A DNA stretch of 41,441 nt, from contig CAJQLJ010000081.1 of the NCBI GenBank assembly GCA_905479135.1, forward strand, positions 1 to 41,441. Direction: 5' to 3'. A model generated the notes under the pieces. That model searched no databases and was not told the origin of the DNA. It saw nothing but the letters and a program-made list of their open reading frames with translations. Below, piece after piece: positions 7,831 through 15,359 of the stretch; positions within the stretch are counted from its first letter, which is position 1, and every line of letters begins with the position of its first letter. The DNA comes from an uncultured Campylobacterales bacterium (GTDB taxonomy: Bacteria > Campylobacterota > Campylobacteria > Campylobacterales > Arcobacteraceae). A program made the translations under genes and the position numbers.

Positions 7831-8790
7831 TTAACTTCTTTTATTTCTTTTTATTAATAAGTAAACAAAAAAAGGAGCTCCTATAAACGCAGTAACAACT
7901 CCAATTGGAAGACTTGATGCTGTATTCAGATTTCTTGATATCAAATCAGATATCACTAAAAATACTCCACCATAAAAAAATACTGGTAATATTAATTGGT
8001 CTGCACTTTTTTTATAAATAAGCTTTATAATATGTGGAACTACTAAACCAATAAATCCAATGGGTCCTACAAAACTAATACTAACACCCACACAAATAGA
8101 AATAACAATAAGTAGAAGTAAATTTAACTTATGTACACTCAAACCTTTTAAAAATGCAGTATCATTTGAGATAAGCAAAAGTTTGATTTTTGACCTATTT
8201 GTGTATATTGTAATATACATAATAACAGCCATAATAAAAATTATAAAAGGGCTTGTAAAACCTACAGTATCCAAACTTCCTAAAGTAAATCTAACTATTG
8301 AATAGTTTTGCTCCAAGTTACTCATATAAAATACTAACATTAATGCAGATGAATAAAAGTAAGATAAAGCAATACCTATTAAAAGAATTGAGTTTGTAGA
8401 AACTGCAATTGTATTTTTATTTATATTCTTAGAAATATAATATAAAATCGTAATTGTTACAAGTGAACCAAAAGCTGAAGATATTGATAAAATCATTGCA
8501 GGAAAAAAAACAATAGAAATAGCAGTAAACAGTGTCGTACCACTTGCAATTCCAAGTGTATATGGAGTTATAAGTGCATTTTTAAATATAATTTGGAATA
8601 CCAAACCACTTAGTGCTAAAATTCCACCTACAAAAAAAGCTAATAGAACTCTTGAAACTCTAAGATCCCAAAATACTTTATATGTAATAGTACTTGAATC
8701 AAATAGTTCATTTAGATTTATACTAATTTCACCTAAAAAAGGAGAGATTATTAGAATAATAATTGAAAATATATATAAACCTAATTTCAT
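7831..8790 (-). CDS. btuC: BtuC/FecCD-type ABC importer permease
   Basis: Inner-membrane permease of a class II (FecCD/BtuC) ABC importer, 319 residues, about nine to ten hydrophobic helices. Family signatures include the WDLRVSRVLLAFFVGGILALSG start region, the GLVFQIIFKNALITPYTLGIASG segment and the coupling region GFIGLVVPHIIKL, followed by a C-terminal RNLNTASSLPIGVVTAFIGAP. It overlaps the ATPase gene by four bases (ATGA), so translation is coupled. With a BtuB-like receptor and BtuF-like binding protein in the same operon, cobalamin or another corrinoid is the likely substrate. A ferric siderophore is the main alternative, so the symbol is by context. Confidence 0.85.
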   Translation of the reverse strand: MKLGLYIFSIIILIISPFLGEISINLNELFDSSTITYKVFWDLRVSRVLLAFFVGGILALSGLVFQIIFKNALITPYTLGIASGTTLFTAISIVFFPAMILSISSAFGSLVTITILYYISKNINKNTIAVSTNSILLIGIALSYFYSSALMLVFYMSNLEQNYSIVRFTLGSLDTVGFTSPFIIFIMAVIMYITIYTNRSKIKLLLISNDTAFLKGLSVHKLNLLLLIVISICVGVSISFVGPIGFIGLVVPHIIKLIYKKSADQLILPVFFYGGVFLVISDLISRNLNTASSLPIGVVTAFIGAPFFVYLLIKRNKRS

Positions 8791-9482
8791 AAGTTTACTA
8801 CCAAATGCTCATTTATTTTTAAAATTGAATCATTATAAAACTTTTTTAGATTTTTATTACAAAAAAAATCTTCATGCTTGCCTAAAAATTCTATTTTTCC
8901 ATCTTTTAAATATAAAATTTTAAATTTTAAAGCATAAGCTAAATCAAGATTATGTGTAATTATAATCTTTTGTTTTAGAAAAGCTGAATTAAAAATATCA
9001 AATACCTCTTTTAATCTTGTAATATCTAAATTCGCAGTTAATTCATCAAATATAGTTATTTTTGCATTGTGTAAGATACTTGAAGCTAGAAGAAGAAGTT
9101 GCTTTTCTCCTGAACTAAAGGCTTTACAATATTTATTTTCAAGTTTTCTAAGATTTAAAATATCTATTAATTCATCAATTTTTTTATTATCAACTTGATC
9201 AATACATGACAATTCTAAAAATTCACGTAAAGTTATGTACTCATCAAATATTGATAATTTTGGTGGAATATAGTTTATATATTCAGCTCTTTTTTTATCA
9301 CTTAAATCATGTAAGTTTTCACCAAATAATTTTACATTATCATTTTGAATTAGATTTGATAAAACTTTTGCAAGAGTTGATTTTCCTGCACCATTTTGAC
9401 CTAAAATAATAAGGTTTTCATCATCTAATGAAAAAGTGATATCCGATAAAATATCACTTTTGTATTTATTTATTTCTAACAT
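8787..9482 (-). CDS. btuD: BtuD-like ABC importer ATP-binding protein
   Basis: Cytosolic ATPase, 231 residues, of the corrinoid/siderophore importer. Walker A is GQNGAGKSTLAK (about residue 28 onward), the ABC signature is the variant FSSGEKQLLLLASSI, Walker B and catalytic Glu are ITIFDELTANLD, and the switch His is IIITHNLDLAY. It is slightly shorter than many homologues. The start lies 17 bases inside the end of the binding-protein gene, and its stop overlaps the permease start. Both overlaps support a single translational unit. Confidence 0.85.
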   Translation of the reverse strand: MLEINKYKSDILSDITFSLDDENLIILGQNGAGKSTLAKVLSNLIQNDNVKLFGENLHDLSDKKRAEYINYIPPKLSIFDEYITLREFLELSCIDQVDNKKIDELIDILNLRKLENKYCKAFSSGEKQLLLLASSILHNAKITIFDELTANLDITRLKEVFDIFNSAFLKQKIIITHNLDLAYALKFKILYLKDGKIEFLGKHEDFFCNKNLKKFYNDSILKINEHLVVNL

Positions 9483-10293
9483 TTTCTAATATCTTTTTAA
9501 AATCATTTATAAAATAAACTACTCTTTGACTTGGAATTCCTGCATATTGTTCATCTATTAAATAAACATTTTTATTAAATCCAGCATTTGTTGGTAAACT
9601 TTGCCAATTAGAGATTATCTTTTTTTGTTCTTTTATCTTACCTTTTAAAAATGGAGATAAAAGAACAATTATATCAGGATTCATATTTATTATTTTTTCA
9701 CTATTTACTACAGGTTGATTTTTTGCGTTTGAAGAAAATGCATTTATATTTTCTGAAGCTTTTAATATATCTTCAAAATAAAGATGATTACCCGCTATAT
9801 AAATTTGATTGTTTAAATCTTTTCTTGGTCCAATTACTATTAAAACTTTTTTATTAGAAACAATTCCTTTTAAAGAAGCTAAAGAGTTATTTATATTTGA
9901 AATAATCTCTTTAGCCTTTTGTTCTTTTTTAAAATAAACACCTAATGTTTTGACAGTACTTTTAATAGCATCAATAGTATCCGTTTTAAATACTAATGTT
10001 TCTATATTTAAACTTTTTAAATTTTCTAGCATTTTTTCATCGTAGTTTTGAGAAACAACAACCGTAGGTTTAGATTCAAGAATCTTTTCTAAAGATATAC
10101 TTGCATGACCACCTACTTTTTTTACATCTTTTGAACGTGGAGGGAAATCACAATATTCAGTATTAGCTACTACACTATTTCCCATTCCAAGAGCATATAC
10201 TATTTCGTTTATTGATGGAGTAAGAGTTACGATTCTTACTTCCCCCATCAAATTAAAACAAAAGACAAAAAGAATAATTATAGTTTTTTTCAT
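9466..10293 (-). CDS. btuF: BtuF-like periplasmic corrinoid-binding protein
   Basis: Class III periplasmic binding protein, 275 residues. A signal peptide covers about 1-17 (MKKTIIILFVFCFNLMGE). The mature start RIVTLTPSINEIVYALG and the following YCDFPPRSKDVKKVGG match the BtuF/FepB fold, where residues such as SDYPP and the Lys-Lys-Val-Gly loop line the ligand pocket. A second lobe has NMNPDIIVLLSPF. It sits between the receptor gene (start codon one base after the receptor stop) and the ATPase gene (17-base overlap). Corrinoid is the favoured ligand because the receptor resembles BtuB. Confidence 0.85.
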   Translation of the reverse strand: MKKTIIILFVFCFNLMGEVRIVTLTPSINEIVYALGMGNSVVANTEYCDFPPRSKDVKKVGGHASISLEKILESKPTVVVSQNYDEKMLENLKSLNIETLVFKTDTIDAIKSTVKTLGVYFKKEQKAKEIISNINNSLASLKGIVSNKKVLIVIGPRKDLNNQIYIAGNHLYFEDILKASENINAFSSNAKNQPVVNSEKIINMNPDIIVLLSPFLKGKIKEQKKIISNWQSLPTNAGFNKNVYLIDEQYAGIPSQRVVYFINDFKKILENVRNK

Positions 10294-10294
10294 A

Positions 10295-12064
10295 TTAGAA
10301 CGTTGCCTTTAATCCTACATAAGCACTTCTTTCTGCTGTTGCATAACCATCAATTGTTTGGTAATATTTATTAAATAAGTTATCAACTTTTAAGTATGTA
10401 GAAAAAGTTTTGTTGATTTCATAGTTCATTACTGAATTCCACACTGTGTAATTTCCAGTTTGCGTATTGCCAACATCTTTCCTATTACCAATATATTCGC
10501 CATTTACATTTAAATGCAATTTACCAATTCCATAATAATCAAGTCCAAATTTTAAATTTCTATTTGCAACTCTTAATAATCTTTCACCATCTTTATCTTT
10601 AGCACTTGTATATGTGTAAGTTAAAGATAAAAGAGTATCTTCTTCAATATTTTTGTTATAGTTTAATTCATAACCTTTTAGAACTGATGTTCCATCTGTA
10701 TTTTCATAATGATCAGTTATATAAGTTAATAAATCATCAATTTTATTTCTAAATAATCTTACTTTTAAGTCCTTATATTTACCAGATATATCAAAAGATT
10801 TTGTAGCTTCTGGGTTTAAATCATTTCCACCATCATGACTTAATTCATATAAACTTGGTGCCTTATATCCTGTTCCATAATTAGTTGAAAATTCAAAGTC
10901 ATTAAAAGAATGTTTTAAGCCAATTTTTCCTGTAACTTTATTCTTAAAGCTTGTATACTTATCATATCTAAGTGATTGAGTAAAAATAGTATCATCGTTA
11001 AATTTATTACTATTACTTAAAAAATATCCTGTATTACTATAGTCTATAGCATAACTCTTTTTTTGAGTAAATTCTTTTCTATCAATTCCTAAAACAATAA
11101 AGTCACTATTGTTATATTCAATATTTGATTTAATACCATATTCTTTTATATCTCCAGTAAATTCATTAGTATAACCTGTTGGATCTACTCTATCAAATGA
11201 TGATTTACTTGCATAGATATCTAGTTTATTTATACTATCATTATGATTAAAATTTATTTTTGAAAATTTACTTTTCGATATGATTTTATCATCTGAATCA
11301 TTTGCATCCGACCCATCATACTCAGATTCCGAATCAATAATCGTATGAGATAAATCTATCTTATTTGCATCGTCAATATTAAAACCAGTTTTTAAAGATA
11401 GTGTCGTATTTTTATAAGAATCATCTTCTAAACTATCTAAATCTACACCTCTTGTAGCTTGTGCAGAAAAACCATCACTTATAACTCTTTGCGCATTTAG
11501 TTTTGCATAGTAATTGTCTTCTTTAAAAGAAACAGATGCTCCATATTTTTTAGTATTATAACTTCCATATTCAGTATTAATAGTTCCATGAAAACCATCT
11601 TCTGAATCTTTTGTTATAATATTAATTACACCAGCACTTGCATCTGCACCCCAAATACCACTTTGTGCACCTTTTATGATTTCAATTTGTTTTATATCTG
11701 TAATTAATATATTTTGTGGAAAAGCTGAACCATTAGTTATATCATTATATCTTATACCATCAATTAAAACTAATACATTTGAATAATGAGCACCATTAAT
11801 TCTTACAAAAGATGTTTGTCCTAAACCACCATTTGATGTAAAACTAATTCCTGCAACACTATTTAATGCTTGTGTTAAATCAGTAAACTGTCTTTCTTCA
11901 AGTTCTTCACTTGTAATAACTTCTATACTTGATGTAACATCTTTGATTGATTGGCTTGATTTTGTAGCACTTGTAACTGTGATTGTGTCTAATTTATCTG
12001 CTGAGTAGATATTTGTGGCTATTAGTAAGCTTAGCCCTAAGCTTGTAGATATTTTTTTATTCAT
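10295..12064 (-). CDS. btuB: BtuB-like TonB-dependent outer-membrane receptor
   Basis: Outer-membrane gated channel, 589 residues, close in length to BtuB. A signal peptide covers about 1-22. A TonB-box-like DTITVTSAT is next, then a plug domain with SSIEVITSEELEERQFTDL, VRINGAHYSNVLVLIDGIRY and GADASAGVINIITKD. The rest is a 22-strand-type barrel with alternating aromatic residues, including GYKAPSLYELS and NLNPEATKSFD-like segments as in BtuB, and it ends in an aromatic residue (YVGLKATF). SD AGGAAC precedes the ATG. It is the first large gene of the operon. No B12-box riboswitch is seen upstream, although many bacterial btuB genes have one. Corrinoid is likely but not proven as ligand. Confidence 0.88.
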   Translation of the reverse strand: MNKKISTSLGLSLLIATNIYSADKLDTITVTSATKSSQSIKDVTSSIEVITSEELEERQFTDLTQALNSVAGISFTSNGGLGQTSFVRINGAHYSNVLVLIDGIRYNDITNGSAFPQNILITDIKQIEIIKGAQSGIWGADASAGVINIITKDSEDGFHGTINTEYGSYNTKKYGASVSFKEDNYYAKLNAQRVISDGFSAQATRGVDLDSLEDDSYKNTTLSLKTGFNIDDANKIDLSHTIIDSESEYDGSDANDSDDKIISKSKFSKINFNHNDSINKLDIYASKSSFDRVDPTGYTNEFTGDIKEYGIKSNIEYNNSDFIVLGIDRKEFTQKKSYAIDYSNTGYFLSNSNKFNDDTIFTQSLRYDKYTSFKNKVTGKIGLKHSFNDFEFSTNYGTGYKAPSLYELSHDGGNDLNPEATKSFDISGKYKDLKVRLFRNKIDDLLTYITDHYENTDGTSVLKGYELNYNKNIEEDTLLSLTYTYTSAKDKDGERLLRVANRNLKFGLDYYGIGKLHLNVNGEYIGNRKDVGNTQTGNYTVWNSVMNYEINKTFSTYLKVDNLFNKYYQTIDGYATAERSAYVGLKATF

Positions 12065-12331: not shown

Positions 12332-12358
12332 ATAAAACTATTGAATCAATAGTTTTAT
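12332..12358. terminator. Perfect 27-bp palindrome; terminator or operator
   Basis: ATAAAACTATTGA, one base, then the exact reverse complement. It overlaps the stop codon of the membrane-protein gene, as a terminator for the 13568-12355 operon would. The downstream arm and following bases are T-rich on the minus strand but there is no long clean T tract. It also sits at the -35 position of the next promoter, so binding by a dimeric repressor is equally possible. Confidence 0.5.
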
Positions 12359-13065
12359 ATGTGACAATCTAAGATTGTTTTACTTGGATCGCTTAGGTAT
12401 TCATAACCTAAGTAAGCGACATAAATACCAAAACCAATAACTAAATATGAAGCTAATTTAATAAATAAATCTCTTAAGTTTGTTTTTTTGAATAAACCTA
12501 CAAAAAAACCAAGTGAAAAAAGTGCTGGTATTGTACTAAGTCCAAAGATAAACATTACAAAAGCACCCCATATAGGACTTCCTGTACTTGCAGCTGTTAT
12601 TGCAAATACATAAACAAAACCACAAGGTAAAAGACCATTTAACATACCTAATAAATAAAAACTCATTAACGAATCAGAACCTAAAAGTGATTTGAAAGTA
12701 CTTTGATAAAGTGGAGATTTTGAACAAGAGTGTTCTATTGAAGTTAGAAACTTGATTTTTCCCATTAACGATAAACCAATTAAAACCATAGTAGAACCAG
12801 TTACTAAAAGTAAAATACCACTAGTTAGATTATCAAAAGTAACAACTCCTCCAACTAGACCAAATAATGCACCTAAAATTGTATATGTTGTGATTCTACC
12901 AAAAGAATATAATAAGTGAACAGTAGCTTGCATTTTCTTAGACCACTCACTTCTAATTTTTGTACTAGAATAAGCTATTACTATTCCACCACACATACCA
13001 ACACAGTGTCCAAAAGAACCTAGAAAAGCGATAGTTACGATTGTTACAATACTTATAGTTTCCAT
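12355..13065 (-). CDS. DsbD_2/UreH-like (TauE/SafE-annotated) membrane protein
   Basis: A 236-residue inner-membrane protein with six hydrophobic helices. The first helix carries GHCVGMCGGIVIAYSS and a later one GLLPCGFVYVFAITA, the paired Cys and Pro-Cys-Gly motifs of the cytochrome-biogenesis-like DsbD_2 family that is often annotated as a sulfite exporter. Family members tend to sit near copper or cytochrome oxidase maturation genes. Its start codon overlaps the stop of the NosL-like gene (TAATG), so the two are coupled. A role in metal or thiol handling at the membrane is an inference. Sulfite export is less likely given the Cys motifs. Confidence 0.8.
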   Translation of the reverse strand: METISIVTIVTIAFLGSFGHCVGMCGGIVIAYSSTKIRSEWSKKMQATVHLLYSFGRITTYTILGALFGLVGGVVTFDNLTSGILLLVTGSTMVLIGLSLMGKIKFLTSIEHSCSKSPLYQSTFKSLLGSDSLMSFYLLGMLNGLLPCGFVYVFAITAASTGSPIWGAFVMFIFGLSTIPALFSLGFFVGLFKKTNLRDLFIKLASYLVIGFGIYVAYLGYEYLSDPSKTILDCHI

Positions 13066-13568
13066 TATTTTCCTATTAATTCTTTTCTAATATATGGGTT
13101 GACTAAGCTTTCGCCTCTTAGCATTTTTAGACTCATCTCATCAAAACTAATAAGATTATCTTCTTTTTTCTCATATGCACCAAATCCATAACCCATAGGA
13201 GTATTTTCTGTTCTGCTATACCAAGCTTTTCTTCCGTCAATATATTTTTTAGTATCAATACTCATTACCCAGATTTTTCCCGTATCTTTAAATGATTTAT
13301 CTTTTAACCAATTTACCATTCCACCGTGATCATGAAAGAACCAAGTCTTTCCACTTTTTGAAACAACTTGAGATACATATGTCATATCATCAATTATCAT
13401 TCCACAATCACTATCTTGATATTTTCCTAAAATTATTTGAAGAGGTGTTTGATTTATATTTCCTTCTTTTAAAACTACCATTTGTTTTTTATTAGACATT
13501 GATAAAAATATTATGATAATTATTGAGATTATTGTTAAAATTGTTAAAAAAGGTAAGATTTTTTTCAT
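13065..13568 (-). CDS. NosL-like membrane-anchored copper-site protein
   Basis: A 167-residue protein with an N-terminal membrane anchor (about residues 4-24, isoleucine-rich) and a periplasmic domain. It shows the NosL features SDCGMIIDDMTYVSQ and TWFFHDHGGMVNWLKD: a Cys-Gly-Met site and His/Met-rich second strand that bind copper in family members. There is no lipobox Cys, unlike classical NosL lipoproteins. No nosZ gene is nearby. It is coupled to the DsbD_2-like gene, so delivery of copper to a respiratory oxidase or reductase is a reasonable guess. SD TTTAGGAG precedes the ATG. Confidence 0.75.
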   Translation of the reverse strand: MKKILPFLTILTIISIIIIIFLSMSNKKQMVVLKEGNINQTPLQIILGKYQDSDCGMIIDDMTYVSQVVSKSGKTWFFHDHGGMVNWLKDKSFKDTGKIWVMSIDTKKYIDGRKAWYSRTENTPMGYGFGAYEKKEDNLISFDEMSLKMLRGESLVNPYIRKELIGK

Positions 13569-13583
13569 TTGTTAAACTCCTAA

Positions 13584-13589
13584 ATTATA
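13584..13589 (-). promoter_or_regulatory. Possible -10 box just before the NosL-like gene
   Basis: TATAAT on the minus strand 15 bases before the ATG and directly before SD TTTAGGAG. If used, the transcript leader would be only a few bases. It lies after the terminator at 13597-13626, so the gene might have its own promoter as well as read-through. Confidence 0.35.
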
Positions 13590-13596
13590 ATTGTAC

Positions 13597-13626
13597 AAAA
13601 AAAAAGCTTCACAAAATTTGCGAAGC
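13597..13626 (-). terminator. Strong intrinsic terminator upstream of the NosL-like gene
   Basis: On the minus strand GCTTCGCAAATTTTGTGAAGC forms a hairpin (outer stem GCTTC/GAAGC plus CAA/TTG) followed at once by nine T. It ends 28 bases before the NosL-like ATG on the same strand, so it ends an upstream leader or small RNA. Confidence 0.8.
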
Positions 13627-13713
13627 CACATTCAAATTTATTAATAGTACCTAGGATACTAATCTTGTACATAATCAGTTAGTAGGAGGATTAATCTAGT
13701 AATATCCTAAATC
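13597..13713 (-). ncRNA. Candidate structured leader or small RNA
   Basis: A -10-like TATACT on the minus strand at 13720-13725 would start transcription near 13713. The RNA would run about 115 bases into the nine-T terminator. It holds AGGATA near its start and TATCCT about 45 bases later, which can close a helix, and no ORF of note. An AAATTTG at 13633-13639 (minus strand) can pair with CAAATTT in the terminator stem, a possible antiterminator. I cannot match it to 6S, SRP or any riboswitch I know. Ends are estimates. Confidence 0.45.
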
Positions 13714-13818
13714 ATTTGAAGTATAACAATTGTTTGTTAAATATTTGTTAAATCAAGATATTTTTTGTCCTATATTTTATTTTGACAAAAATTTAATCTT
13801 ATTTTTTATTTTTAATCC

Positions 13819-13824
13819 TATAAT
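13819..13824 (+). promoter_or_regulatory. Putative -10 box of the HAD phosphatase gene
   Basis: TATAAT, 30 bases before the ATG, with an SD-like TAGGAT between. A plain promoter without a clear -35 box. Confidence 0.45.
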
Positions 13825-13854
13825 TAGCTATAAAATAATTTAGGATAATAATAT

Positions 13855-14478
13855 ATGCGTTTAATAATGTTTGATATGGATGGAACTTTAATAGATAGTG
13901 GCTTAGCAATTGCAAATACAGTAAATCATGTAAGAGAACAACTTGGATTTGAAAAACTAGAAATTAATTATGTTTTAGAAAAGGTGAATGAAGCTCACTT
14001 AAATACTTCAGAATTTTTTTATGGAACAAAAAATTATACAGAAGAACAGACGAAACTTTTTGAAGATTATTATAATGAGCACTGTTTAACTGATTTAGTT
14101 TTATATGATGGCATTTATGATTTGATTTCTGATTTAAAAGGTGATTTTAAACTCGCAGTTGCGACAAATGCAAATTCATTCTTTGCTAAAAAAATGTTAG
14201 ATCACGTTGGAATTGGTCATCATTTCTCTACTGTTTTAGGTTTTGATAGTGTTAAAAATGCTAAACCACATCCAGAGATGGTAAATAAAATATTAAATAA
14301 ATATTCTGTTGAAAGTAAAAATGCACAACTAATTGGTGATTCTCATAAAGATATTATAGCAGCTACAAAAGCTGGTGTTGATTCAGTTTTAGTAAACTGG
14401 GGATTTTCTAATCATGAAAAAGATGCTATTGAAACAGTAGAAGAATTAGAAAATAAAATTTATCAAAAGTTCAAATAA
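13855..14478 (+). CDS. HAD-family hydrolase, phosphoglycolate-phosphatase-like
   Basis: A 207-residue cytosolic phosphatase of HAD subfamily IA. Motif I is FDMDGTLIDSG (nucleophile Asp7, acid/base Asp9), motif II is AVATNAN, motif III Lys is in NAKPHPEM, and motif IV is LIGDSHKDI. The helical cap lies between motif I and II (about residues 16-80). SD AGGATAAT precedes the ATG. It converges on the histidine kinase gene with only 11 bases between, so the two transcripts probably meet. The natural substrate may be phosphoglycolate or another small sugar phosphate and cannot be fixed from sequence. Confidence 0.88.
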   Translation: MRLIMFDMDGTLIDSGLAIANTVNHVREQLGFEKLEINYVLEKVNEAHLNTSEFFYGTKNYTEEQTKLFEDYYNEHCLTDLVLYDGIYDLISDLKGDFKLAVATNANSFFAKKMLDHVGIGHHFSTVLGFDSVKNAKPHPEMVNKILNKYSVESKNAQLIGDSHKDIIAATKAGVDSVLVNWGFSNHEKDAIETVEELENKIYQKFK

Positions 14479-14489
14479 TAAAATTAGTT

Positions 14490-15359
14490 TTAGTTATTAG
14501 GTAAAATGTTTTCAAGATTAAGCATGAAAACATTTCCTTTATCTGTTGTATCAATTTTTATCGTAATCTTATTTTTATCACAAAATTCTTTTACAATATT
14601 TAAACCAATGCCAAAACCATGATTTGAAGAATCAGTTTGATAGTATCTATCAAATATTATAAATAAGTTTTTAGTATCAATCTTTTCACCTTTATTAAAT
14701 ACAGATAGGATATTTTTTTCATAGCTGATATTTACTATTGGTTCTTTTTTACAATTATATTTAATTGCATTAGAAAGTAGATTATCTATGACTTTTTCAA
14801 AGCCATTTACATCTGTTAGAAGTCTTATATGAGGAAGAGTAGATGTAATAATTATATTTTCTTTTATATCTTCAAATTTTTCAATAGAATCTGTAATTAT
14901 CTCATCTAAGAAACATTCTTGTTTTTCTATTTTATCTATTTGTTTTTTTATATTATATTCCATATCTTCATATAATTTTAAAAGATTATTAGAAGCTTGT
15001 TTTATTCGGTTAAGACGATTTAAACTTTTTTCATCACTAATATTTTTTTCTAAAAGCTGAGCATTCATTTTAATAGTTGATACAGGAATATTAAGTTCGT
15101 GAATTGTTTCTTTTAATTTCTTTTGTAAATTATCATCACTTTGAAATAAAGGTTTTAAAATACTTGTTGTAAAACTTAAAAAGATTATAAGTGCTAAAAA
15201 AATTAAGACAATTGTAAAATAAATAAAACTTTCTTTGTTTATCCCAAAAAATGAAATAAGTGCAAAATTAATACCAAGTATAATAAGAACAGTAAAAGTA
15301 AATACTAAAGAAACAGAAATTAAAAAATCTCTTTTTTTAGAATTCAATTTTATATCCAA
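14490..15359 (-). CDS. Sensor histidine kinase without large periplasmic domain
   Basis: A 289-residue membrane kinase. Two helices at about 13-37 and 45-66 are separated by only a few residues, so there is almost no extracytoplasmic sensor. The phosphoacceptor is His87 in KETIHELNIPVS. The ATPase domain has the N box NLLSNAIKYN, a D-F segment (IIFDRYYQTD) and the G box GFGIGLNIVKEF. Its start overlaps the end of the response regulator gene by 23 bases, so the pair is co-translated. The stimulus is likely sensed in or at the membrane or through a partner; this is inference. Confidence 0.88.
   Translation of the reverse strand: MDIKLNSKKRDFLISVSLVFTFTVLIILGINFALISFFGINKESFIYFTIVLIFLALIIFLSFTTSILKPLFQSDDNLQKKLKETIHELNIPVSTIKMNAQLLEKNISDEKSLNRLNRIKQASNNLLKLYEDMEYNIKKQIDKIEKQECFLDEIITDSIEKFEDIKENIIITSTLPHIRLLTDVNGFEKVIDNLLSNAIKYNCKKEPIVNISYEKNILSVFNKGEKIDTKNLFIIFDRYYQTDSSNHGFGIGLNIVKEFCDKNKITIKIDTTDKGNVFMLNLENILPNN

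Follow-up and report, generated by a model that had tools for sequence, protein, structure and literature searches.

A predicted Hfq-independent small RNA of the Arcobacteraceae with complementarity to the ccoN leader

A structured segment ending in a strong terminator lies just before a NosL-like gene in an uncultured Campylobacterales bacterium of the Arcobacteraceae, and it raises the question whether its transcript is a leader that switches the following gene or a small RNA with a gene of its own. The whole stretch of DNA analysed, called here the window, is 41,441 nucleotides long. Our study gives good grounds to believe that the locus encodes an independent trans-acting sRNA of Arcobacteraceae, about 117 nt in length, which would pair with the ccoN mRNA and lower CcoN translation without Hfq. 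The features of the locus are as follows.

13735..13751, minus strand: TTAACA-N5-TTAACA direct repeat, a likely response-regulator site, 9 bases 5' of the -10 box
13720..13725, minus strand: TATACT, putative -10 box of the sRNA promoter (consensus match)
13597..13713, minus strand: predicted small RNA of about 117 nt, its 5' end placed from the -10 box
13703..13709, minus strand: 5' arm of helix 1, UAGGAUA
13679..13690, minus strand: unpaired UCCUCCUACUAA, complementary without mismatch over 12 nt to the Shine-Dalgarno region TTAGTAGGAGGA of ccoN
13673..13678, minus strand: 5' arm of helix 2, CUGAUU, the weakest helix (83-88% of cells paired)
13664..13674, minus strand: second pairing block UUAUGUACAAG, overlapping the helix 2 loop and complementary, with one G-U, to CUUGUAUAUAA of the ccoN leader
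13659..13664, minus strand: 3' arm of helix 2, GAUUAG
13652..13658, minus strand: 3' arm of helix 1, UAUCCUA (97% of cells paired)
13597..13627, minus strand: terminator hairpin (13627-13605, helix 3) with its T tract
13584..13589, minus strand: TATAAT 3' of the terminator, likely the separate promoter of the NosL-like/SafE operon
13065..13568, minus strand: NosL-like gene (weak label), downstream neighbour outside the RNA
12355..13065, minus strand: SafE/DsbD_2-type membrane protein gene, downstream neighbour (PF13386, E 1.6e-49)
13855..14478, plus strand: divergent HAD-family hydrolase gene, the locus marker in most genera

Part of this gene anatomy had been pointed out in the original prediction and was found in place: the TATACT box (13725-13720, minus strand), the folding segments AGGATA/TATCCT, both of which are arms of helix 1, the hairpin with nine T (13627-13605), whose end lies 28 bases 5' of the ATG at 13568, and the second TATAAT 3' of the terminator (13589-13584). 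The hairpin is the sole minus-strand terminator-like site in 13000-15000, a region in which two such sites occur on both strands together against 0.4 expected from shuffles. The NosL label of the neighbouring gene is weak: its product is not matched by the Pfam NosL family, and PF05573 matches two homologues in Sulfurimonas-type records below the cut-off only (E 0.0026 and 0.044). Downstream of SafE, the region 8787-12064 holds genes of ABC-transporter type and one for a BtuB-like TonB receptor, whose best match, TIGR01779, stays below the cut-off, and BtuB-like genes follow the RNA locus in many relatives. The Rfam search found no cobalamin riboswitch in the window, and the only riboswitch of the window at Rfam thresholds is a TPP riboswitch (RF00059, 39906-40011, plus strand, 69.8 bits).

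The fold of the 122-nt RNA was found to be better than that of its shuffles (z -2.47; 2 of 200 shuffles as good). In an unfitted alignment of 22 sequences, 94.4% of the cells are paired against 38-45% for slid structures, and 8 pairs are changed on both sides. The alignment of 47 sequences, which was fitted to the covariance model and is biased towards it, has 93.6% of the cells paired against 36-46% for slid structures, with both-side changes in 18 of 23 pairs against 9.6 in shuffles. In helix 3, the terminator, 9 of 10 pairs covary. The covariation check proposed in the original prediction thus came out in favour of the structure and, because the stems are conserved in relatives with compensatory changes, one of the proposed grounds for refutation, stems unconserved in relatives, does not apply. 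It had also been stated that the RNA could be matched to no known class. This agrees with a search of Rfam 15, in which the window RNA matched no family at the gathering score and a relaxed threshold returned chance-level matches only.

Conservation is confined to a limited group of bacteria among the genomes covered. A 144-bp stretch is present in 8 of 10 genus genomes, its own included, at 85-100% identity. The covariance model, built on 22 sequences, matches 51 of 104 Arcobacteraceae genomes (E<=0.01), and all its 15 matches in 298 genomes sampled from the order are Arcobacteraceae; the match in the window spans 13595-13719 (minus). Weak matches were kept only if beside HAD or NosL/SafE, and two of the 51 (G066 and G084) as well as a second match in G006 were rejected as false, being off locus. 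A divergent copy of the RNA is found at the same place in 22 further genomes, and in three of these (g3) the downstream gene is convergent. By eye, an RNA-like unit was recognized upstream of the divergent HAD gene in 19 of 27 genomes (g3, g4, g10, g16, g18 and g19), a 28th match, G082, having been left out as too distant; three of the 22 divergent copies are extra g10 copies outside this survey. On contig C12 of G003 (L003, L375) some 12 kb separate the HAD gene from the RNA and each end retains a TTAACA repeat, which would fit a duplication of their common promoter region or an insertion that divided it. In four g2 genomes (L015, L016, L043, L045) the RNA is separated from the HAD gene by an inserted thioredoxin/ResA-like gene that lies on the strand of the RNA. 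The product of the convergent gene in g3 (L345, L342) is a small protein, possibly a haem protein, with a CxxCxxxH-type sequence at its C-terminal end.

The RNA gene lies far from ccoN, which encodes subunit I of the cbb3 oxidase (TIGR00780, 690.6 bits). When 41 genomes were searched for AGTAGGAGGA followed by ATG within 14 bases, ccoN was matched in 9 of 10 genus genomes and was the sole match in 7; the first discovery of ccoN was not blind, since the search used the complement of the loop. In the window genome, all 12 nt of UCCUCCUACUAA can pair with the ccoN leader, and a further 11 bp form between UUAUGUACAAG and CUUGUAUAUAA. The duplex with ccoN has a calculated energy of -31.3 kcal/mol; nosL reaches -14.9, and among 43 ORFs of the window the best value is -17.9. 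A scan of 400 kb of G005, picked to include the ccoN and RNA regions, placed ccoN (-30.3) as the best of 436 ORFs (next -22.4; mean -8.9, sd 3.7). An earlier duplex scan with a 75-nt segment ranked ccoN fifth (fourth once the self-match is set aside) and was of little use because long imperfect duplexes dominate it. The core of the ccoN leader, TGTGACTTGTATATAAAATTAGTAGGAGGAGATTGATG, is strikingly conserved, and the leader is near-identical across many genera, also in some without detected RNA (G085, G069). The 5' leader (e.g. L180 / L201 on contig C7 of G000) consists of repeats of GTGAC followed by CTTGTATATAA and a long Shine-Dalgarno sequence.

From these parts we infer the following course of events in the cell. 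The sRNA would be transcribed from a promoter of its own, which a response regulator bound to TTAACA-N5-TTAACA probably activates, and would end at its own terminator. It would expose UCCUCCUACUAA for pairing with the ccoN Shine-Dalgarno region, and the second block may pair further 5' in the ccoN leader and aid the first. The predicted duplex would block ribosome entry on the ccoN mRNA; as it covers the ribosome-binding site, less CcoN translation is expected. An Hfq-dependent sRNA was ruled out by the missing Hfq (PF17209), which was found in 0 of 5 genomes searched, the same search being positive in 5 of 14 control genomes. A link of the RNA to metals or redox state is plausible, if indirect, as its apparent target encodes a haem-copper oxidase subunit.

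The complementarity to this distant mRNA is conserved, as is typical of trans-acting sRNAs, and it appears to track the ccoN leader. Changes of the leader between genera are mirrored in the RNA of g16 (TTGATATATAAAAAATT), g18 (TATATC), g3 (TTGTATAAAA) and G025, with contiguous perfect pairing of 15-23 nt in six g16 genomes and of 15 nt in G025. When energies were averaged by genus (65 genomes, ten genera), the cognate sum was -270.4 against -242.8 (sd 6.3) for permuted partners, and 0 of 20,000 genus-level permutations were as low; g16 and g18 contribute most of this signal, and g2 overall has no cognate advantage (+0.5). Among 22 pairs hand-picked from the 65 and compared with 300 dinucleotide shuffles each, 16 were never beaten and the other six were matched 1-13 times. 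Seven Aliarcobacter RNAs retain the old loop after a change in ccoN, leaving a pairing of 9 nt. Weak pairing is also seen in g19 (-11 to -19), G034, G064, G066, G068 and G076.

These data also bear on a related reading, in which an independent sRNA would use a general anti-Shine-Dalgarno loop on many targets, ccoN being one among them. The most constant bases, CCUCCUAC, would suit many Shine-Dalgarno sequences, and the scoring of alternative targets covered only about 14% of G005 plus the window. Within that scope, however, ccoN stands far apart from the 435 other ORFs of the G005 scan, and the second block and the g16/g18 changes follow ccoN specifically; a many-target sRNA is the less likely reading.

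The original prediction had seen in this locus the layout of an attenuator or riboswitch. Such a cis-acting leader would steer the NosL-like/SafE operon through termination or read-through, and would account for the strong terminator placed so close to the ATG and for the position of the RNA, which is immediately 5' of NosL or SafE at 46 of 47 model-found loci, even in g10, where the upstream gene differs. The copy of AAATTTG (13633-13639) is indeed complementary to CAAATTT in the terminator arm, but this 7-nt pairing is not conserved: it occurs in 1 of 48 sequences, the window alone, and reaches at most 5 nt in 45 of 48, the mean being 4.35 against 4.07 in shuffles. Neither a conserved antiterminator nor constant co-transcription with the downstream gene was found, as would be expected of an attenuator or riboswitch. 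A perfect TATAAT lies between the terminator and the next gene at 33 of 47 loci against 17% of shuffles. NosL is missing from 15 of the 47 real loci that carry the RNA (L079, L080 and L081 were left out of this count as false), and the RNA is kept without both NosL and SafE at L077 and in most of g16. The downstream gene of g3 is convergent, and therefore the RNA in g3 cannot be a leader. Moreover, 70 of 80 NosL-like loci of named genomes lack the RNA, the 10 with it being all Arcobacter-group, and the lack of an Rfam class also speaks against a leader. We rejected the attenuator or riboswitch because the antiterminator pairing is so rare, a separate TATAAT is present and the g3 and g16 loci do not fit it, and a cis-acting leader in general is very improbable. 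The other suggestion of the original prediction, that the RNA could be independent, holds up better: the unit has promoter and terminator motifs of its own and is separable from NosL/SafE, which are, at the motif level, properties of a trans-acting sRNA.

A shared DNA element, i.e. a promoter or regulator site that the two loci carry in opposite orientations, with no RNA pairing, is hardly credible, for although block 2 (CTTGTATATAA) is AT-rich and promoter-like, the likeness also takes in the Shine-Dalgarno sequence, the g10 leaders have no TATAAT-like box there, and the RNA side belongs to a structured and terminated unit 3' of its promoter.

For the independent sRNA pairing with ccoN, the repeat before the promoter may indicate the regulator. 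In 8 of 10 genus genomes the combination of TTAACA-N5-TTAACA with the -10 box is found a single time, in each case at the RNA locus, and the repeat lies 5' of the RNA in 20 of 47 relatives, being mostly missing in Aliarcobacter. The repeat as such has 40 copies in the ten genus genomes, not more than its reversed control (46). Its positions are non-random: 10 of the 30 sites with loci are the RNA's own promoter, and among 19 others (a tally that leaves out one site at a contig edge) 11 lie before TonB-receptor genes, 3 before nosZ, 2 before major outer-membrane porin genes and 1 before the HAD gene, with 2 falling inside genes. Six receptors, both porins and two nosZ were assigned by family search and the others by N-terminal likeness; one of the receptors has the TonB copper receptor as its best NCBIfam match, far below cut-off. 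The repeat loci are L364, L365, L367, L368, L373, L376, L380-L383, L385, L386 and L389-L392, besides 13735-13751 in the window. At some sites of Poseidonibacter-type genomes three or four TTAACA repeats stand in 11-bp register. This distribution suggests that the repeat serves as operator for a so far undescribed regulon of outer-membrane and denitrification genes. The 11-bp spacing suggests an OmpR/PhoB-type regulator for the RNA promoter, which is to be taken as a lead only.

An extension of this reading is copper economy, in which the regulator of TonB receptors, porins and nosZ would switch the RNA on when copper or another envelope-imported cofactor is short, CcoN would be silenced, and the coevolution would predate the split of the genera. 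We regard this extension as rather unlikely; a copper or cofactor signal is a lead only.

RyhB-type sRNAs are cofactor-sparing, Hfq-dependent regulators of many targets, and RyhB itself spares iron. The sRNA described here may be a work-alike in that it would reduce the synthesis of a metalloenzyme, whereas its sequence is unrelated and a cofactor signal is conjectural here. Within the same phylum, RepG and NikS of Helicobacter pylori are described in PMC8322730 as Hfq-free trans-acting sRNAs that act on translation at 5' leaders, NikS being under a metal-responsive regulator. The predicted sRNA resembles them in being trans-acting, without Hfq and directed to a 5' leader; by the same description their targets differ (tlpB; cagA, vacA and outer-membrane genes), RepG binding a G repeat. 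The alpha-r14 / NfeR1 sRNAs of rhizobia likewise present an unpaired conserved CCUCC-type motif against Shine-Dalgarno sequences, but, according to PMC10746234, they have three hairpins, all carrying CCUCCUCCC, and act on many targets; the RNA described here has one CCUCC-type stretch, accompanied by a ccoN-specific block, which does not fit that family. The HRC-8-4 motif of Rhodobacterales is also a structured RNA element tied to cbb3 oxidase genes; PMC8632094 places it between ccoNOQP and ccoGHIS in alphaproteobacteria, whereas the Arcobacteraceae RNA gene is far from ccoN. Our literature search found neither a described Arcobacteraceae sRNA nor any sRNA pairing with ccoN. On the sequence evidence, we judge the locus to represent a putative new family of Hfq-independent sRNAs, an ordinary kind of regulator, for which one target has strong support.

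If true, this would be the first sRNA found described for the Arcobacter family, in bacteria free of Hfq, with a clear target in subunit I of the cbb3 oxidase. The RNA and the leader have drifted together between genera, and hence the pairing can be tested directly by loop/leader swaps. Further, the repeat at the promoter suggests an undescribed regulon that takes in outer-membrane receptors, porins and nosZ, and it makes the signal of the sRNA testable as well.
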